Shown one piece after another: positions 45,910 to 59,431 of a DNA stretch of 64,000 nt. The notes beneath the pieces were generated by a model, which saw only the letters and a program-made list of their open reading frames with translations, searched no databases and was not told the origin of the DNA. Each line of letters begins with the position of its first letter. Position 1 is the first letter of the stretch. The position numbers and the translations under genes are program-made. The DNA lies in contig NC_007498.2 of the NCBI RefSeq assembly GCF_000012885.1, positions 1 through 64,000 on the forward strand. Reading direction: 5' to 3'. The stretch comes from Syntrophotalea carbinolica DSM 2380. GTDB lineage: Bacteria; Desulfobacterota; Desulfuromonadia; Desulfuromonadales; Syntrophotaleaceae.

Positions 45910-47316
45910 TCAGGCAACCCCTTCCGGAACCGTCGCCGGTTGCCGGCACAAGCGCGCCGTGACGCAGAATACCAGCAGGTTGGCGAACACGCCGACCAGC
46001 AGACCGTCAAAGCCTCCAGGCGTTCCAAGCACCTGGTTCCAGATGAAGACACCGCCCAAACCGGCCGCCGCACCGGCACAGAAGGCTGCGGTTCCGGCGC
46101 GTACGCCCAGCAGGGTGGCGGCCAGGGGCACCAGAATAATGGGCGACCAGAAGTTGTAGGCGTAAATCAGAATATCGATCAGGCTTTTGATGCGGATGGC
46201 GAACACCACGGAGATGGAGCCGGTAAGAAGGGTGGCCAGCCGTGCGAACAGCAGTCCGCGCTTGGGCGTCAGGGGGTGTCGACGCAAGGGATTGACGATA
46301 TCGTTGACGAAAGCCACCGAAGCGCTGTTGAGGAACGAATCGGCGGAGGACATGACCACGGCGATGATGCCGGCCACAACCAGTCCGCGCAGCCCGATGG
46401 GCAGGACGGTTTCGACCACATAGGGCAAGGCGAGATTGGGATTAAGCTCCGGATTGAGTCCCAGCGCCAGCAGGCCGATACCGCCGGCGATGGCGAAAAA
46501 CGGAATGGAAAATAAGCCGCTCCACAGGGTGCCGCGGCAGATGGCGCGGGTCTTACGGCTGATGAACAGGCGTCGTACGTACGGCGGTACCAGCGTTTCT
46601 CCCAGCAGAAAGGTCAGAAACAGCGACAGGATCTGCACCGGAGTAAGATGCGCGGTCAGGTTGAAATGGTCCATCGGCACCCGCGCGGCCAGGGCTTCCA
46701 GGCCGCCGACCTGGCGTATGCCCAGGATCAGGGCCAGAGGAATACCCAGGGCCAGTACGCAGAACTGCAGCACATCGGTAGCCACCACCGACCGCATGCC
46801 GCCGAGGGTATCGTAAAGGATGACGATGCTCATCCCCAGTAGAATACCTGTCGGTACCGACAGCCCCAGAAAGAGGTTGAAAAGGTACCCCATGCCGCCG
46901 ACCTGGGCACCGAGGATTCCGGCGCACAGCAGTACGGAAAAGACGCCGGTGATGACCTTGCCGATCTTGCCGTAATTGACCTCCATGACGTCGCCCACGG
47001 AAATGGCATTGGGAAAATGCCCCATGCGCGGGCCGATGAAGCCGGCCACCAGGATCTCTTTGAGACTGAAGCCCCAGAGGACCAGAATATTGATAATGCC
47101 GAGGGTAAAAACCTTCTCGGCGTTGCCCATGGTGAAGCCGCCGCCGATAAACGAGGCGGAAAGGGTCATGGCGATGACCAGGGCGCTGTAGCCGCGGTCG
47201 CCGACCGCGTAATCCTCCAGGTCCCTGACCCGGCGTCCGGACCACAGTCCCAAGCCGAGGACAAAGGTCAGATAAACAAGAATGATGATCTGGTCGGTCA
47301 GGTGCAAGTCGGTCAT
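45910..47316 (-). CDS. Sodium:solute symporter (SSS family)
   Basis: A 468-residue inner-membrane protein with about 13 helices. It begins LTDQIIILVYLTFVLGLGLW and has the core block AMTLSASFIGGGFTMGNAEK, and GIIAVVMSSADSFLNSASVAFVNDI, typical of solute:sodium symporters (LeuT-fold). Substrate (proline, pantothenate, sugar, acetate and others) cannot be assigned. A strong ribosome site (GGAGGAG) precedes the ATG and may be masked by an upstream complementary sequence. Terminator downstream. Confidence 0.88.
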   Translation of the reverse strand: MTDLHLTDQIIILVYLTFVLGLGLWSGRRVRDLEDYAVGDRGYSALVIAMTLSASFIGGGFTMGNAEKVFTLGIINILVLWGFSLKEILVAGFIGPRMGHFPNAISVGDVMEVNYGKIGKVITGVFSVLLCAGILGAQVGGMGYLFNLFLGLSVPTGILLGMSIVILYDTLGGMRSVVATDVLQFCVLALGIPLALILGIRQVGGLEALAARVPMDHFNLTAHLTPVQILSLFLTFLLGETLVPPYVRRLFISRKTRAICRGTLWSGLFSIPFFAIAGGIGLLALGLNPELNPNLALPYVVETVLPIGLRGLVVAGIIAVVMSSADSFLNSASVAFVNDIVNPLRRHPLTPKRGLLFARLATLLTGSISVVFAIRIKSLIDILIYAYNFWSPIILVPLAATLLGVRAGTAAFCAGAAAGLGGVFIWNQVLGTPGGFDGLLVGVFANLLVFCVTARLCRQPATVPEGVA

Positions 47317-47324
47317 AAAGGCTT

Positions 47325-47400
47325 CTCCTCCAGAATGAAATTAAACAGGCAACACATTGTAATGACAGGCATTTTAGCTTATCGGCAATGGCTGGAGGAG
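47325..47400 (-). promoter_or_regulatory. Possible ribosome-site sequestering hairpin in the symporter leader
   Basis: On the - strand the ribosome site is CTGGAGGAG (47333-47325). A perfect complement CTCCTCCAG lies 58 nt upstream (47400-47392). If transcribed, the two could pair over 9 bp and hide the ribosome site. TTGACT (47404-47399) overlaps the upstream copy and could instead be a -35 box, so the transcript may not include it. Confidence 0.35.
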
Positions 47401-53027: not shown

Positions 53028-56000
53028 TCAGAACATCACTGCCAGGTGCAGACGCAGGGCGTGACCTGCGGCGCCGTGGCTCTGCAGGTCGCAGGTGTAG
53101 TCCAGCATTCCGAAGACGTTGTCGGACATCCGGGCCCGCAGCGAGGCGCCGAGCAGCAGGCCGTCGCCGGCCAGGTCGCGGCCCGGTGTGATAAACGTGT
53201 CGCCGCCGGCCAGGCGGGCCTGCAGCGCTTCGGTCTTGCGATTGAATTCGTGCTGCCATTCGATACGCAGTTCCGGTTGCAGGGTCAGGGTGTCGAGCCG
53301 CAACGGATGGCTTAAACGCACACCCAGCTGGCTTTGCAGGGAATCGTTGTCGCGCGCCGCGATCTTCAGGTCGGCGCTGTTGGCGCCGGATTCGCGAAAG
53401 CTCTCTTCGCGCAGATGCACGAAGCTCAGCCCGGCGCCGGGATCGATGATCCATCCGTTAACGTCTAGCGTATAGCCGCCGTTGAAGGTGGCGCCGATCA
53501 GGCTGCCGTCATGCTCGCTGTGGGGTCTGCGGCCGGCGAACGGGATGGAGCGATCGGTGTCCAGCTGACAGAGACCACCGCCCACAACGGCCTCCATATG
53601 CATGCCGTCGGCGCGGCGCGGCTCGCGCCAGGCCGCGTAAAGGTATCCCTGCTGGCTTTTGATTTCGCTGTCGTCGTTGCCGTCCCGGCCGTCCAGGCGG
53701 CTTTCCGACACGGCGGCCGCCACGCCCAGGGTCAGGCCACCGGAGGTTGATCGGTGCATCCCCAGCAGCAGTCCGTAAAGTTCTTCCCGTGCGCCGAAAT
53801 ACCCGCCATCGCTGCCGTAGCGGTTGTCTTCACCGAGGATCTCGAACCAGGCGGAGGGCTTTCCTTCCGGCTGCATGTCCGGATCGACGCGCTGCAGGCG
53901 GCGGCGCAGATCGCCCAGGCGGGTTTGCGCATCGTTCAGGATCACGGTGCTGGCCAGACCGTGGATGCGCGGGGTCAGAGAGGCGAGGGCGTCGTTGAGC
54001 GCCGACTGACTCAGGGCCAGATCGAGGCTGTCGAGCAAGGAACCGAAATCGCCGTCGGCGGTGGACCGCAGACCGTCCAGGGTGCTGGCCAGACCCCGGT
54101 TGTGCGGCGAGGACAGTGCTGTGTAGCTGTTGCGCGTCACATCGAGGCTCAGGCTGCCGGGGGTGGCATCGTCCAGGGTGACAGAGAGCACCGCGGCGCT
54201 GGTCAGTGTTTCGAAGGCGCCGGCGATGGTTCCCGCCTCCAGGAAGGTATAGCTGCCGCCGGTGGCGTAGCCGTCGGGCAGTATCAGCAGGGTGCCGGCC
54301 AGATCGGCGGTGCCGGTGACGGTAAGCAGGTCGGCGATGCCGTCGCCGATTTCGATCTCCAGGGTGCCATCGGCGGTCTGCGCGTAGTCGCCGACAACGG
54401 TGAGATGGCCGACGGAATGGCCCGGCGCGACCGTGCCGCCGTTGGCGACCGTGCCGGTTACCGAACCGTTGCCGCCGAGGATGCCCTCTGCCAGGACCGA
54501 TGTCTCACCCGCCAATGCGCCGTCCACCCCCAGCCGCCCCAGGGCGACCTCGATGCTGCCGAAGGCTGAGGCGCCGCTCAGGGACCAGTCGTCGCCGGCC
54601 ATCAGCAGGGTTTCCACACCGTAAAAGGACGTATCTTCACTGCCGCTGCCGTTTAGCCAAACGACATCGCTGTTTCCTTTGAGATAGGCCGTTCCGATCA
54701 GATCGGATCCGGTTTCCAGCACGAGTAAGGTGTCGTCCTCGGATTTTATGGAGGCATAAGCGCCGCTGATGGTGCCGCTGTTGAGAATCGTTGTTTTCTT
54801 GGTAGCCAGCAGGCCGATACTGGTGCCGGATAATATGTCCGGATCTTCCAGGGACGCTGCCGCCAGGATGGTGCCGCTGTTGTTCAGTACAGCAGGACCT
54901 CCGCTCAACAGCACACCGACAGCGTAAGTGTCGGCAAAGGCGAAGATACTGCCGCTGTTGGTGACTTCGGTCAGGTAGCGACTGTCGGCCCAGATGCCGT
55001 AGCCGGCATTGGTGCCGCTGTTTTGAGCCCATGCCAGCACCAGTCCGTTGTTGCGGATTTCCAGGGGATTGCCACCGTTGGCCGCCCATACGCCGAAGGC
55101 CAGTGCCTGGTCGGCATGGCTTGTGGCCAGGGCGAGCAGTTGGCCGCTATTATCCACAAGACCGCCCTGCAGGCAGATGGCATAGGCGCTGGCCTGGTTG
55201 TTGTCGCTGGAGGCCAAAGCTCCTATAAGCTTCTCGTTAATCACCTGGCCTTCGGGTCCACCCCACAGATAGACGCCGCGCGCCGTGGCCAGTTCGGTTT
55301 CAGCGTATGCTTCGGCCAGGATGGTTCCCCGGTTGGTTACGCTACTGGCGGCGCCGCCCCACAGGTCCAAGCCGTGAGCGTTAAGTGTACCGCCGGCACT
55401 CCAGGGAGTAGCCGACAGGTCTTCTTGATTTTCCAGGACGACATTCGCACCGCTCCAGGGTTCCAACATCATATAGGCGCTGTGCAGCGCCACTTTGGCG
55501 GTGGTATAGCGGATGTTTACATAGCCGTTATCCCCCCAGTTTTCAGACCAGCTGTTACGTAAAATCCAATAGCCTAGACCGTCGTCCCCGGGTTCATCGT
55601 TCCAGCCCACCAGGGCAACAAGGTGGTTGGCGGAGGATTCGTAAGGCAAGGGATTGTTGATGGCGGTGTTTTGGTTGGTCAAGATGCCGCCGGAGTAGGC
55701 GTAAAAGTCATCTTCGACCAGTACGCCGGCGGTAACCGCTCCAATGTGGTAGAGAATGCGGCGCGTGGTTTCGATGTCGCTGGGGGGAATGCGGTACCAG
55801 TCCAGAAAACTATAGCGCGTTGCATCCCAGTGCAGATCGCTGCCTGGATCTGTCATGGTGTAGGGAAAGTCCGATTCAAGTGGTACGCCATACTCGATCA
55901 GTGCCGTGTTTTGCTGGAGATCCAGACTGCCGCCATCGCACCCATGCAGGCCATCGTACAGAGGACTCAGGCTCCAGGTCAAAAAGGCTTCGGAAAAGTC

Positions 56001-56228
56001 GATGGCCTGGTCGTCATACAGGCCATGGACCCGGTTCCAGGTGCTTTCGGCGGCGGCCAGGGTGCCGAAGGACCAGCAACTGCCACACTTTTTCTGGTTG
56101 CGCACCGGCCCAATATAGCTGCGTCCGTCGATGTTGCGCAGGTCAAAGGAGGAGGGCAGGTCCGCGCCACCGGCGTAATTGCAGAACACAAAAGCTAGAA
56201 GAAGGCAGAGCAGGGGAATGAAACGCAT
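53028..56228 (-). CDS. Autotransporter with an N-terminal papain-family cysteine protease
   Basis: A 1066-residue secreted protein. Start ATG 56228 (GGAGAG before it) gives a signal peptide of about 22 residues. Residues 24-260 are a C1A protease: Gln45, Cys51 in CGSCWSF, GCDGG, His202 in NHLVALVGW, Asn225 in LRNSW. The mature domain follows the signal directly, with no propeptide. Residues about 265-620 hold weak repeats of the N-x-GTI type. A PATR-like segment (NGGTVAPGHSVGHLTV) precedes a C-terminal beta-barrel (about 790-1066) ending in Phe. It is likely a type V secreted surface protease; the target is unknown. Confidence 0.88.
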   Translation of the reverse strand: MRFIPLLCLLLAFVFCNYAGGADLPSSFDLRNIDGRSYIGPVRNQKKCGSCWSFGTLAAAESTWNRVHGLYDDQAIDFSEAFLTWSLSPLYDGLHGCDGGSLDLQQNTALIEYGVPLESDFPYTMTDPGSDLHWDATRYSFLDWYRIPPSDIETTRRILYHIGAVTAGVLVEDDFYAYSGGILTNQNTAINNPLPYESSANHLVALVGWNDEPGDDGLGYWILRNSWSENWGDNGYVNIRYTTAKVALHSAYMMLEPWSGANVVLENQEDLSATPWSAGGTLNAHGLDLWGGAASSVTNRGTILAEAYAETELATARGVYLWGGPEGQVINEKLIGALASSDNNQASAYAICLQGGLVDNSGQLLALATSHADQALAFGVWAANGGNPLEIRNNGLVLAWAQNSGTNAGYGIWADSRYLTEVTNSGSIFAFADTYAVGVLLSGGPAVLNNSGTILAAASLEDPDILSGTSIGLLATKKTTILNSGTISGAYASIKSEDDTLLVLETGSDLIGTAYLKGNSDVVWLNGSGSEDTSFYGVETLLMAGDDWSLSGASAFGSIEVALGRLGVDGALAGETSVLAEGILGGNGSVTGTVANGGTVAPGHSVGHLTVVGDYAQTADGTLEIEIGDGIADLLTVTGTADLAGTLLILPDGYATGGSYTFLEAGTIAGAFETLTSAAVLSVTLDDATPGSLSLDVTRNSYTALSSPHNRGLASTLDGLRSTADGDFGSLLDSLDLALSQSALNDALASLTPRIHGLASTVILNDAQTRLGDLRRRLQRVDPDMQPEGKPSAWFEILGEDNRYGSDGGYFGAREELYGLLLGMHRSTSGGLTLGVAAAVSESRLDGRDGNDDSEIKSQQGYLYAAWREPRRADGMHMEAVVGGGLCQLDTDRSIPFAGRRPHSEHDGSLIGATFNGGYTLDVNGWIIDPGAGLSFVHLREESFRESGANSADLKIAARDNDSLQSQLGVRLSHPLRLDTLTLQPELRIEWQHEFNRKTEALQARLAGGDTFITPGRDLAGDGLLLGASLRARMSDNVFGMLDYTCDLQSHGAAGHALRLHLAVMF

Positions 56229-56450
56229 GATTCTCTCCACGGCTAAAACTCGGGTAGTGTTTGATGAAATCGAATACTTCATTGAAGCAAATAAACATAC
56301 ACGCGGCAGGCATAGAAAATCCAATTAGAAAATTTCCACAAACAATAAGAAAGGGAAAGGCTGTTCTAATGGGCCTATCCAGAGGGCCCTATGGCTTGAT
56401 TTTTTCGATCTTATTCTGCACAAAAAACATGCGTTCAGAAAAATCTTGCT
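56229..56450. other. AT-rich gap between the autotransporter and arsR
   Basis: About 220 bp of AT-rich DNA serving as promoter region for the divergent autotransporter and arsR genes. No gene or named RNA seen. A short GGGCC/GGCCC repeat at about 56380-56400 is the only structure noticed. Confidence 0.5.
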
Positions 56451-56481: not shown

Positions 56482-56820
56482 ATGAAAAAAACGACGGACC
56501 TTTTTAAAGCCTTGGCCCACGAGACACGGTTGCATATTCTCTGCCTGCTGCTCGACGGGGAGGTGTGTGTCTGCAAGATCATGGAGATTCTGGATCTGCC
56601 TCAATCGACCGCTTCCCGCCATCTGGCTATTTTGAAGAACGCCGGGCTGGTTGAGGATCGCCGCGACGGCACCTGGGTGCACTACTCTCTTGCCCATGGC
56701 CACGACGCCCTGGCGGACCGATTGTTGGCTGTTCTGGGGGCGCATCTGCCGCAGACCAAAGAGGGAGCCAGGAATCGCCAGAGGCTCCTGGAGGCATTGC
56801 ACCGGAAAAATTGCGCCTGA
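56482..56820 (+). CDS. ArsR-family transcriptional repressor
   Basis: A 112-residue winged-helix repressor. ALAHETRLHILCLLL is the family pattern, and the recognition helix region is STASRHLAILKNAGLVEDRRDG. Cys29 and Cys31 in GEVCVCKI match the CVC metal-sensing site of arsenite-type ArsR proteins. The metal released could be As(III)/Sb(III) or a soft metal. It precedes an Fe-S protein and a permease, and a matching operator lies on both sides of it, supporting control of the unit and of itself. Confidence 0.9.
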   Translation: MKKTTDLFKALAHETRLHILCLLLDGEVCVCKIMEILDLPQSTASRHLAILKNAGLVEDRRDGTWVHYSLAHGHDALADRLLAVLGAHLPQTKEGARNRQRLLEALHRKNCA

Positions 56821-56828
56821 TTTTTTTT

Positions 56829-56866
56829 CCGGGCGATATATCCGGATTTTCGGATATATCGCCCGG
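56829..56866 (+). promoter_or_regulatory. 16-bp inverted repeat, second candidate ArsR operator
   Basis: CCGGGCGATATATCCG (56829-56844) and CGGATATATCGCCCGG (56851-56866) are a perfect 16-bp inverted repeat with a 6-bp spacer. Its inner part ATATCCG-N6-CGGATAT repeats the operator before arsR. It starts 9 bp after the arsR stop and lacks a T-tract on either strand, so an operator is likelier than a terminator. Confidence 0.65.
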
Positions 56867-56903
56867 ATTCAGGGATGGTGCCAGCGTAAAGGAAGGTGAA
56901 ACG

Positions 56904-58310
56904 ATGGATCGAAAAGTGGATAAAAAACAAAAGACGCCGCAGGAAGTTCTCCGTGACGTTATGCGATTATGCGCTGACTGTGACACCTGCCGCACCATGA
57001 TGGAGGAGGATTGCGCATTTTTCATCGAACTCTACCGGCTTGTTGATCAGGAGCAGGAAGAAGGAATCCCCATTACCGAATCGCAACTGCGTTACCTGGC
57101 CGAACTCTGTACTCTGTGCGGCTTGTGTCCCTGTCCGAAAGTCCCCATGGATGTGATGGAGGCCAAGACCCGCTATGTTGAACGGGAGGGCCTTCCCCTG
57201 GCAACGCGCCTGCTCAATGATGTCCCACGCATGGCCCGACTGTGCGGTACTTTTCCCCGCCTGGTTAAAGCCATGCAGGAGAATAAGATCCTCGGTCCTT
57301 TGTTGCGCAAAGCGACCCGCATCCACCCTGACCGGCAATGGCCCTCCTTTCCTCAACAGAATTTTTTCAAGTGGGCGGCAGCCAAGGGGCTGGACAAGCC
57401 GCAAAACGGCGATCACCAAGTCGCCTACTTTGTTGGTTGTACCGCAGGGTATCTGTTCCCCCAGATTGGTCGTAGCGTGGTGGAGATCCTGCAACACAAT
57501 GGTGCTAACGTCTATGTGCCGCCACAGCAATGTTGCGGTATGCCCTTCCTGGTGGAGGGGGACCGCAATCGTACCCTGCAGTTGGCCCGAACCAATATGG
57601 AGAAGCTGCTTGAATCGGTGCGCGGCGGCGATGACCTCATTTACTCCTGCCCTACCTGCGGCTTTTTCCTGAAAAGACTGCTCAAGGACAGGGCATATTA
57701 TTCCGATGTGTTCCAGAAGTCGGTCAACGCGGTTGAGGGCGAATTGAAGGTTCCCGCTCCCGAAAAAGGCGAGAACCAGTTCTGGCACCTGAAAAAATCC
57801 ATGTATCACGACATCCTGAAGGACGATGGGTATTTTTCTTCCATCGACCCCATGGATCGTATTCAACTTGCCGATCATCTCTTCGATTTCGGCATTTACC
57901 TGGCGCGCCTTCATGCCGAAGGGAAGCTCGCCACCGACTTCGCACCCCTGCCTGAGCGCATGGCTTATTTTGCACCGTGTCATTTGCGGGAGCAAAAAAT
58001 GGGGCGGCCTTACCTCGATCTGCTGAAGATGGTTCCCGGACTGGACATCGAAGAGGTCGGCAGCGATTACGACTGCTGCGGCATGGGAGGCATTTTCGGC
58101 TTCAAGGAACATTTTCACCAGAAGTCCCTGGATCTGGGAGCACCGCTGATGAAAAAGATCCGAGCGCATGATCCGCAGGCCATCGTCACCGACTGCATGA
58201 GTTGCCGATTGCAGTTCAGTCACTGCCTGCCCTATCCCGTATATCACCCGGTTGAAGTGCTGGCCAGGGCCTATCGCAGCGAGGGGTCGCAAGTCAACCG
58301 GCAGGAATAA
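56904..58310 (+). CDS. CCG-domain Fe-S protein (GlpC/heterodisulfide reductase-like)
   Basis: About 468 residues from ATG 56904 (ribosome site ggaaggtg; a longer frame from 56811 runs through the operator). The N-terminal half has two clustered Cys groups for [4Fe-4S] centres (CADCDTC; CTLCGLCPCPK). Two CCG domains follow (QQCCGMPF and DYDCCGMGGIFG, with CPTCGFFL and CHLREQKMG). Such proteins move electrons from a flavin or thiol partner to membrane carriers. Its place in an ArsR unit hints at thiol or metalloid redox, an inference. Confidence 0.82.
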   Translation: MDRKVDKKQKTPQEVLRDVMRLCADCDTCRTMMEEDCAFFIELYRLVDQEQEEGIPITESQLRYLAELCTLCGLCPCPKVPMDVMEAKTRYVEREGLPLATRLLNDVPRMARLCGTFPRLVKAMQENKILGPLLRKATRIHPDRQWPSFPQQNFFKWAAAKGLDKPQNGDHQVAYFVGCTAGYLFPQIGRSVVEILQHNGANVYVPPQQCCGMPFLVEGDRNRTLQLARTNMEKLLESVRGGDDLIYSCPTCGFFLKRLLKDRAYYSDVFQKSVNAVEGELKVPAPEKGENQFWHLKKSMYHDILKDDGYFSSIDPMDRIQLADHLFDFGIYLARLHAEGKLATDFAPLPERMAYFAPCHLREQKMGRPYLDLLKMVPGLDIEEVGSDYDCCGMGGIFGFKEHFHQKSLDLGAPLMKKIRAHDPQAIVTDCMSCRLQFSHCLPYPVYHPVEVLARAYRSEGSQVNRQE

Positions 58311-58369
58311 AATCGTAACCGGGCCTGACCGTACAGGGCCCGGCGTAACCTTCAGAAGGAGCTTCACCC

Positions 58370-59431
58370 ATGGAAAATCAAGCCAGCGCGGCCTCGGAAT
58401 CGCAAAATACACCCCGGAAAAGTTTTATCGGTGTCAAAATCGGCCTGTTCCTCATCGCCTGGTTTATGATCTACCATCAGCTTTTGCCTCTGTCGCGGTT
58501 TCTCACCTATGATCTGCTCGGGTTGCAGGCGGGAGGGCACCTCGGCTCGGCGGTGGAGTTTTTCCTCTACGACACCCCAAAGGTATTGATGTTGCTGGTG
58601 CTGGTGGTGTTCGGTGTCGGCATTTTGCGCAGCTTTATTACGCCGGAGCTGACCCGGAAAATCCTGGCCGGCCGGCGGGAATCCACCGGCAATGTATTGG
58701 CCGCTCTGCTCGGCGTGGTGACGCCCTTTTGTTCCTGTTCGGCGGTGCCGCTGTTTATCGGATTCGTCACCGCCGGCATCCCTCTGGGGATAACCTTCTC
58801 CTTCCTGATCTCGGCTCCTATGGTCAACGAGATCGCCCTGGTGTTGCTGTTCGGCTTGTTGGGCTGGAAGGTCGCCGCTCTGTACTTTATTACCGGGATA
58901 GTGATTGCCACGGTGGCCGGTTGGATCATCGGACGTTTGAAACTTGAGAATCATGTGGAAGACTGGGTGCGGGAGATGCAGGTCAATCAGGCGGCCATGC
59001 CCGACGAGGTCCTGTCGTGGGAAGAACGGATCAGCTTCGGCATCGACGCGGTAAGGGATATTGTCGGCAGAGTCTGGCCGTACGTGGTGATCGGCATTCT
59101 GGCCGGAGCCGCCATCCACGGATTCGTGCCGGAGAATTTCATGGCCGGCATCATGGGCAAGAGCGCCTGGTGGTCGGTCCCCGTATCGGTATTGATCGGG
59201 GTTCCCATGTACACCAACGCCGCCGGCATGATTCCGGTGGTCGAGGCGCTGCTCGGCAAGGGCGCCGCCCTGGGTACCGTCCTGGCCTTCATGATGAGCG
59301 TCATCGCTCTTTCGTTTCCGGAAATGGTCATCCTTCGCAAAGTGCTCAAGCCGCGACTGATCGGAACCTTTATCGGAGTGGTCGGAGTGGGAATTCTGCT
59401 GGTCGGTTACCTGTTCAATCTTGTCATTTGA
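58370..59431 (+). CDS. UPF0718 permease (ArsP/DUF318-like efflux protein)
   Basis: A 353-residue membrane protein with about eight to ten helices. The block VVTPFCSCSAVPLFIGF (CSCS motif) and the second-half counterpart GVPMYTNAAGMIPVVEALL mark the UPF0718 permeases. Known relatives export trivalent methylated arsenicals (ArsP) or other metals. Combined with the upstream ArsR, efflux of a metal or metalloid is likely. Ribosome site aaggag 8 nt before the ATG. Confidence 0.88.
   Translation: MENQASAASESQNTPRKSFIGVKIGLFLIAWFMIYHQLLPLSRFLTYDLLGLQAGGHLGSAVEFFLYDTPKVLMLLVLVVFGVGILRSFITPELTRKILAGRRESTGNVLAALLGVVTPFCSCSAVPLFIGFVTAGIPLGITFSFLISAPMVNEIALVLLFGLLGWKVAALYFITGIVIATVAGWIIGRLKLENHVEDWVREMQVNQAAMPDEVLSWEERISFGIDAVRDIVGRVWPYVVIGILAGAAIHGFVPENFMAGIMGKSAWWSVPVSVLIGVPMYTNAAGMIPVVEALLGKGAALGTVLAFMMSVIALSFPEMVILRKVLKPRLIGTFIGVVGVGILLVGYLFNLVI

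Follow-up and report, generated by a model that had tools for sequence, protein, structure and literature searches.

How can a papain-family protease be exported as the passenger of an autotransporter when no inhibitory propeptide precedes its catalytic domain? The question is raised by a gene lying in the first 64,000 nucleotides of contig NC_007498.2 of the anaerobic mud bacterium Syntrophotalea carbinolica DSM 2380 (hereafter the window), in which an earlier note had described a papain-like cysteine protease fused to an autotransporter barrel. Papain-like enzymes are usually made as zymogens, an arrangement that protects the producing compartment. The gene was recognized as Pcar_0046 of Pelobacter carbinolicus because the neighbouring ArsR, CCG-domain and ArsP_1 permease genes match Pcar_0047-0049 of the genome paper (PMC3543383). 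As a tentative answer, we propose that Pcar_0046 belongs to a single-origin enzyme class in which folding coupled to secretion may have taken over from the zymogen propeptide; the chassis lineage of this class seems to swap heads (cysteine or HExxH metalloprotease-like) and to cross phyla.

Pfam analysis placed Peptidase_C1 (PF00112) on residues 24-244 of Pcar_0046 (E 9e-36; 124.4 bits, cut-off 20.7) and Autotransporter (PF03797) on residues 793-1045 (E 6.5e-55; 187.1 bits, cut-off 26). Both domains of the proposed fusion thus lie in one gene, far above the Pfam cut-offs, and the phylogeny of each was mapped. No S6 or S8 peptidase domain was found in the passenger by Pfam at E ≤ 0.1, where the matches were just PF00112, PF03797 and a weak C1-like model. 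The chain runs in the order putative signal peptide, C1A head, beta-helix stalk, junction, helical linker and 12-strand barrel ending in Phe (Table 1). In the AlphaFold2 model, whose confidence is mostly good, beta strands start at residue 264, helices occupy residues 702-780 and 12 long strands residues 791-1065, the last residue being Phe1066; the C-terminal barrel ending in Phe was therefore as the note had described it, and the repeat-rich middle that it had pointed out is modelled as a beta-helix stalk (residues 264-537). Foldseek matched the model to EstA, AaaA, NalP, EspP and pertactin, and comparison with type Va structures places helix 754-780 probably in the barrel pore. Within the S. 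carbinolica genome, Pcar_0046 is the sole place matching PF00112 at E ≤ 0.001 and one of three PF03797 proteins; the genome paper counts four autotransporters. At the level of sequence, Pcar_0046 is a real, well-conserved cysteine-protease autotransporter. We consider it fairly probable that it is a type Va (classical) autotransporter with a papain-family (C1A) head at the passenger N-terminus and a predicted role as a surface protease.

The catalytic residues Gln45, Cys51, His202 and Asn225 were found exactly where they had been predicted. The set is invariant among the five full-length fusion proteins and present in 13/13 barrel-fused proteins in our alignments, and was recognized by eye in three more (loci L131, L132 and L145). 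Cys48 and Cys97, which we take to correspond to the papain disulfide Cys22-Cys63, vary as a pair across the 13 aligned fusions (both present in eight, neither in five, and never one alone). Cathepsin C was among the matches of the head to sequences of the Protein Data Bank (PDB; E 2.3e-30). The C1A domain of a barrel-free relative, L087, is 47% identical to the head and adopts a papain fold in its model (Z 30.7). Ratios of nonsynonymous to synonymous substitution rates (dN/dS) between Pcar_0046 and four relatives were 0.09-0.15 for the head in three of the four comparisons, the fourth being saturated, and rose to 0.21-0.28 for the stalk, 0.29-0.38 for the junction plus linker and 0.31-0.37 for the barrel. 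The head had the lowest value of the four parts in all three calculable comparisons, and the complete predicted catalytic set was shown to sit within this most constrained part of the protein. The barrel-free protein L073 aligns Ser at the position of the catalytic Cys, and is either an inactive homologue or locally misaligned.

Altogether, 16 C1A-autotransporter fusions including Pcar_0046 were detected, chiefly from Desulfobacterota and Verrucomicrobiota; two (L051, L145) are cut off by contig edges and three are broken across frames. The scan of named genomes gave 80 loci, 11 of which are C1A-barrel fusions: seven in one frame, one (L051) meeting a contig end within the barrel, and three frame-broken. 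Their hosts are Pelobacter sp. UBA6812, Desulfuromonas sp. CSMB_57, bins of Desulfuromonadales and Desulfobacteraceae, four Verrucomicrobiota bins and one bin labelled Planctomycetota (L042, on a contig of 5 kb; it clusters with Desulfuromonadales and is possibly misbinned). Beyond these 11 and Pcar_0046, fusions were found at L018, L131, L132 and L145, the last stopping at a contig edge before the barrel. Five single-frame fusions are 54-74% identical (L038, L039, L040, L042, L018) and five are more distant (L045, L046, L050, L131, L132). A fragment of another autotransporter's barrel lies on the same strand upstream of one fusion and downstream of another (L145 = G774:C52; L046:8066-8434), which suggests tandem copies.

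The fusion occurred in 6/14 genomes of the family of Pcar_0046. Across its order, PF00112 was matched in 8/136 genomes, seven of which hold a C1A-barrel fusion-type protein. Among sampled genomes of its phylum the fusion was present in at least 2/395 (S. carbinolica itself and the genome of L145), in the Verrucomicrobiota phylum in at least 1/387 and in a Verrucomicrobiota order in at least 4/223; these counts are lower bounds, as at most two candidate stretches per genome (E ≤ 1e-40) were scored in both phylum scans and at most three (E ≤ 1e-25) in the order scan. Fusions in the phylum scans were judged from the parts of the query matched, and none of five doubtful loci examined had a barrel. 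Among long C1A proteins checked with the barrel profile, the six at L171-L176 and the five at L188-L192 were without a barrel. The fusion clade is thus spread widely but sparsely. A mobile origin was considered and rejected, C1 matches being weak in both phages (3 records, 26-29% identity) and plasmids (8 records, 25-31%).

A tree was built from 49 of the 82 C1A loci considered, after removal of 33 with a C1A E above 1e-50. A single branch with a long stem (support 100/100) separates the 13 fusions, all on one side of it, from the barrel-free proteins around them; among the fusions, Verrucomicrobiota make up one group, and Desulfobacterota together with the Planctomycetota-labelled bin another. 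When 45 barrels were placed in a tree, the 14 borne by C1A proteins grouped with three metalloprotease-like barrels (100/99); the remaining 28 autotransporters, which resemble the barrel profile used and come from related and Verrucomicrobial genomes, fell outside this group. The three metalloprotease-like proteins (L184:3593-6670 and L008:163-3189 in G052, L009:1-3015 in G012), all from the same order, are the nearest chassis relatives of the C1A fusions, from which they differ in having an HExxH head, with a weak, sub-cut-off match to the metalloprotease model NF038122, and no C1A domain. In this tree the L044 fragment groups with the metalloprotease-like barrels and L050 sits on a long branch, so that any order of head swaps would be tentative. 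Taken at the sequence level, the trees, with the root set by midpoint, suggest one fusion event followed by transfer between phyla.

The N-terminus sets the fusions apart from their barrel-free relatives. The C1A domain of the fusions follows the signal peptide immediately, some 20-40 residues downstream of the probable start (picked by eye), whereas the nearest barrel-free relatives carry about 70 extra N-terminal residues with a conserved motif. A profile of this pro-segment matched 30/36 of those relatives and 17/19 further barrel-free C1A proteins; since it was built from 28 of the 36 rows, matches among these are partly by construction, which does not apply to the zeros, and since the two genome collections overlap (e.g. 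L087 with L147) the two counts are not independent. It matched none of the 16 fusions (0/13 tested, as well as L131, L132 and L145). Secreted barrel-free proteins such as L087, L053 and L061 share the catalytic residues of Pcar_0046, but have a procathepsin-like segment, other or no C-terminal parts and no barrel detectable by the barrel profile.

The L087 model including its pro-segment (predicted local distance difference test, pLDDT, 88.7) had procathepsin K as its best structural match (Z 30.7, root-mean-square deviation 2.7, 270 residues from residue 32), whereas most mature papain-type enzymes align with 210-217 L087 residues, from about residue 90-95; in Foldseek, the first 18 rows were all of pro-form length (304-363 residues). 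Because L087 thus matches proenzymes best, over that segment too, the modelled pro-segment very probably occupies the position of a cathepsin propeptide, and it would presumably act as an inhibitor. Pfam did not call it I29 in the two proteins scanned, L087 and L053. A C1A propeptide, usual albeit not obligatory, is not found in Pcar_0046, where the domain starts at residue 24 and the profile is silent; the absence of an inhibitory propeptide proposed earlier was upheld and can be sharpened to an apparent loss, judged from sequence, in the clade that gained the barrel. At the other end of the barrel-free C1A proteins, 12 of 56 frames that no contig or locus end truncates, near-duplicates between the collections included, carry a hydrophobic tail with a Leu-Leu-Leu run plus one to three residues (L087, L052, L061, L063, L066, L147, L148, L152, L153, L155, L156, L158). 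NCBIfam sorting-signal models gave no match in the seven proteins scanned; the tail is possibly an anchor or sorting signal.

A mechanism can be proposed in which Sec would export the chain with the passenger unfolded and the beta-barrel assembly machinery (BAM) would insert the barrel into the outer membrane. The passenger would then thread out C-terminus first, with the junction and beta-helix folding outside, and the N-terminal head, emerging last, would fold and become active at the cell surface only. Removal of the signal peptide near residue 22 would already leave the mature C1A N-terminus, so that no zymogen step would be needed, and a protease unable to fold before being outside would not need a propeptide. 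Considering type Va biology and the anatomy of Pcar_0046, secretion topology likely replaces control by a propeptide. The head would subsequently work as a thiol protease, either tethered to the surface or set free, in a habitat that is anoxic and reducing.

Several observations weigh against this reading. The head itself is poorly modelled (pLDDT below 50 across much of residues 4-259 of the full-length AlphaFold2 model), probably because the alignment was shallow (16 rows); its papain fold therefore rests on Pfam, the PDB sequence matches and the L087 model. The synonymous rates (dS) behind the dN/dS comparisons are high or saturated. Absence of the pro-segment does not require a barrel, since the profile also failed to match 6/36 nearest barrel-free relatives, two of the 19 further ones (L159, L161), any of the 33 more distant C1A loci left out of the tree, or L171-L176. 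Moreover, as the fusions are one clade, loss and gain amount to one coincidence and not to a repeated correlation. Three fusion genes (L041, L043, L044) are split across frames in draft assemblies, through errors or decay, and the gene is patchy, being absent from two genomes of the same genus, one of them 99% complete. In place of the pro-segment, the six nearest relatives without a profile match (L069, L071, L072, L074, L075, L076; one from Desulfobacteraceae, the others from Bacteroidota) carry another type of N-terminal extension, with the C1A domain at frame residues 152-194.

The coordinates of Pcar_0046 and its parts are collected in Table 1. The frame begins with an ATG at 56228, as read from the sequence. 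Cleavage behind the signal peptide would leave a mature C1A N-terminus. The segment before the barrel had been labelled PATR-like. This label could not be upheld: no PATR model of Pfam or NCBIfam matched residues 500-789 at E ≤ 10 (HMMER filters may hide weak matches), and this part of the chain is similar to the corresponding junction in EprS, a subtilisin autotransporter. The EprS model spans residues 549-1052 of Pcar_0046 (E 5.2e-37; 127 bits, cut-off 1700), and covers residues 549-783 when the 500-789 piece is searched (E 2.1e-16, far below the equivalog cut-off). Junctions of the autochaperone kind are said to be typical for passengers with a beta-helix (PMC5767081).

Table 1. Pcar_0046 and its parts in the window, with the basis of each assignment
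Feature	Position	Strand	Basis or remark
Whole gene Pcar_0046	53028..56228	minus	stop-free frame, 1066 aa + stop; name inferred from neighbours
Likely ribosome-binding site GGAGAG	56233..56238	minus	4 nt before ATG; good Shine-Dalgarno match, read from sequence
Sec signal peptide, residues 1-22	56163..56228	minus	typical by eye and position (sequence, alignment inspection)
C1A papain-family head, residues 24-258	55455..56159	minus	PF00112 E 9e-36; PDB sequence matches; lowest dN/dS
Gln45 (oxyanion hole)	56094..56096	minus	49/49 in C1A alignment
Cys48, predicted disulfide partner of Cys97	56085..56087	minus	C1A alignment
Cys51 (nucleophile)	56076..56078	minus	13/13 fusions, 48/49 overall in C1A alignment
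Cys97, predicted disulfide partner of Cys48	55938..55940	minus	C1A alignment
His202	55623..55625	minus	49/49 in C1A alignment
Asn225	55554..55556	minus	49/49 in C1A alignment
Repeat-rich beta-helix stalk, residues 264-537	54618..55439	minus	AlphaFold2 strands; pLDDT blocks mostly 80-97, 62-79 at start
Junction, residues 538-701, autochaperone-like (EprS-like), not PATR	54126..54617	minus	EprS model; AlphaFold2
Helical linker, residues 702-780, last helix 754-780	53889..54125	minus	AlphaFold2
12-strand translocator barrel, residues 791-1066, C-terminal Phe	53031..53858	minus	PF03797 E 6.5e-55; AlphaFold2; Foldseek

Pcar_0046 is adjoined by genes for ArsR (Pcar_0047), a CCG-domain oxidoreductase (Pcar_0048) and a DUF318/ArsP_1 permease (Pcar_0049), which lie on the opposite strand (56482-59431) between the fusion and nifS. 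In the window, the NifU and NifS genes follow beyond this group, at 61711-59571; L019 and L021 have them next to the fusion. Because the fusion directly follows nifS in both L019 and L021, the ArsR-CCG-permease genes look inserted. Five of the six family loci (the window, L017, L018, L020 and L021) have a sodium:solute-symporter-like gene in the vicinity of the fusion; the copies are 73-91% identical to that of the window, and their side and distance vary. In the window this gene is at 45913-47340, 5.7 kb from the fusion, beyond glycosyltransferase-type genes common to the window and L019. Since the fusion gene keeps its surroundings within the family, the family copies are probably orthologous, with later insertions around that of the window.

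Other explanations of this protein were weighed against the same evidence. Joining of two genes by a sequencing or assembly error, which the three frame-broken relatives might recall, can be given practically no weight: in ten further proteins the two halves share a single frame. This settled the doubt, raised in the earlier note, that the halves might be separate genes, and error or chance was rejected, as the single-frame fusion recurs in many genomes. Many autotransporter passengers are adhesins, and the head could likewise be catalytically dead, an adhesin or structural cap; with the catalytic set kept in every aligned fusion, and in the part of the protein with the lowest dN/dS, this is very improbable. 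Chagasins or cystatins control some C1A enzymes, and a separate inhibitor, instead of topology, might check activity in the periplasm. However, no chagasin (Inhibitor_I42) was found in the S. carbinolica genome by a search whose control was positive in Methanosarcina, nor was a stand-alone copy of the pro-segment, for which both control genomes gave matches; an Inhibitor_I29 search of the genome was silent, but so was every control. We regard such an inhibitor as quite unlikely.

Two further proposals concern what the protease would cleave. It might mainly process its own stalk or surface proteins of the same cell, like NalP and SphB1, and not outside substrates. In keeping with this, the nearest named protease-autotransporter model is the subtilisin-type EprS, which, like NalP and SphB1, processes surface proteins (PMC9289746), and two PF03797 proteins besides Pcar_0046 are encoded in the genome. 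Against it, the passages of that review tie the role to N-terminal lipidation (PMC9289746), no N-terminal lipobox was seen by eye, and no surface-protein gene is a constant neighbour of the fusion; a maturation role seems rather unlikely, if still worth bearing in mind. The symporter-like gene near most family copies would fit a protease that frees peptides or amino acids for uptake with the help of the co-located transporter. This gene, however, scores below its family cut-off, which makes any substrate assignment tentative; besides its shifting side and distance, it is separated from the fusion by a cytosine deaminase in L020 and was not seen in the L019 stretch examined, while the genome paper describes P. 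carbinolicus as a fermenter of alcohols and diols (PMC3543383). Nutrient scavenging is accordingly judged unlikely.

The reading of Pcar_0046 as a surface protease controlled by its secretion route has to be set beside what is in print. The novelty claimed in the earlier note was overstated, as the 2012 genome paper already counted four autotransporters in P. carbinolicus and predicted a cysteine peptidase as part of the Pcar_0046 passenger; its passages on the protein name no peptidase family, propeptide, relatives or origin (PMC3543383). A 2026 review credits Fusobacterium nucleatum with the first such protein, an autotransporter with a cysteine protease, for which it cites a 2005 paper; as the relevant passage puts it, this anaerobe too carries its cysteine protease on an autotransporter of type V (PMC12940168). 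A 2022 classification recognizes three divisions among the autotransporter enzymes it covers, namely chymotrypsin-like, subtilisin-like and GDSL-lipase; the words 'cysteine' and 'papain' are absent from its main text, and its passages fit the remark that classical autotransporter proteases are mostly serine enzymes (PMC9289746). The term 'cysteine protease' is also missing from a 2019 overview (PMC6555100). A 2023 study of how the papain family arose states that prokaryotes have numerous multidomain C1A proteins, which it left unanalysed (PMC10380794). Among the papers listed by our searches of the open-access literature, which mostly leaves out subscription journals, there was no study of a C1A autotransporter. 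The S8 subtilisin-like autotransporters (EprS, NalP, SphB1, Ssp) share with Pcar_0046 an N-terminal protease head, a beta-helical part and a 12-strand barrel, but their head is a serine peptidase of unrelated fold and not C1A.

The bare fusion is therefore not new; what the present analysis contributes is a clade of one origin, thinly scattered over a wide range of hosts, in which the propeptide was apparently lost. To the three divisions set out in the classification passages (PMC9289746) the clade would add one of cysteine proteases. Having a barrel in place of an inhibitor-like segment, it would also offer a direct test of whether outward, C-to-N folding is enough by itself to keep a potent protease harmless inside the cell that makes it.

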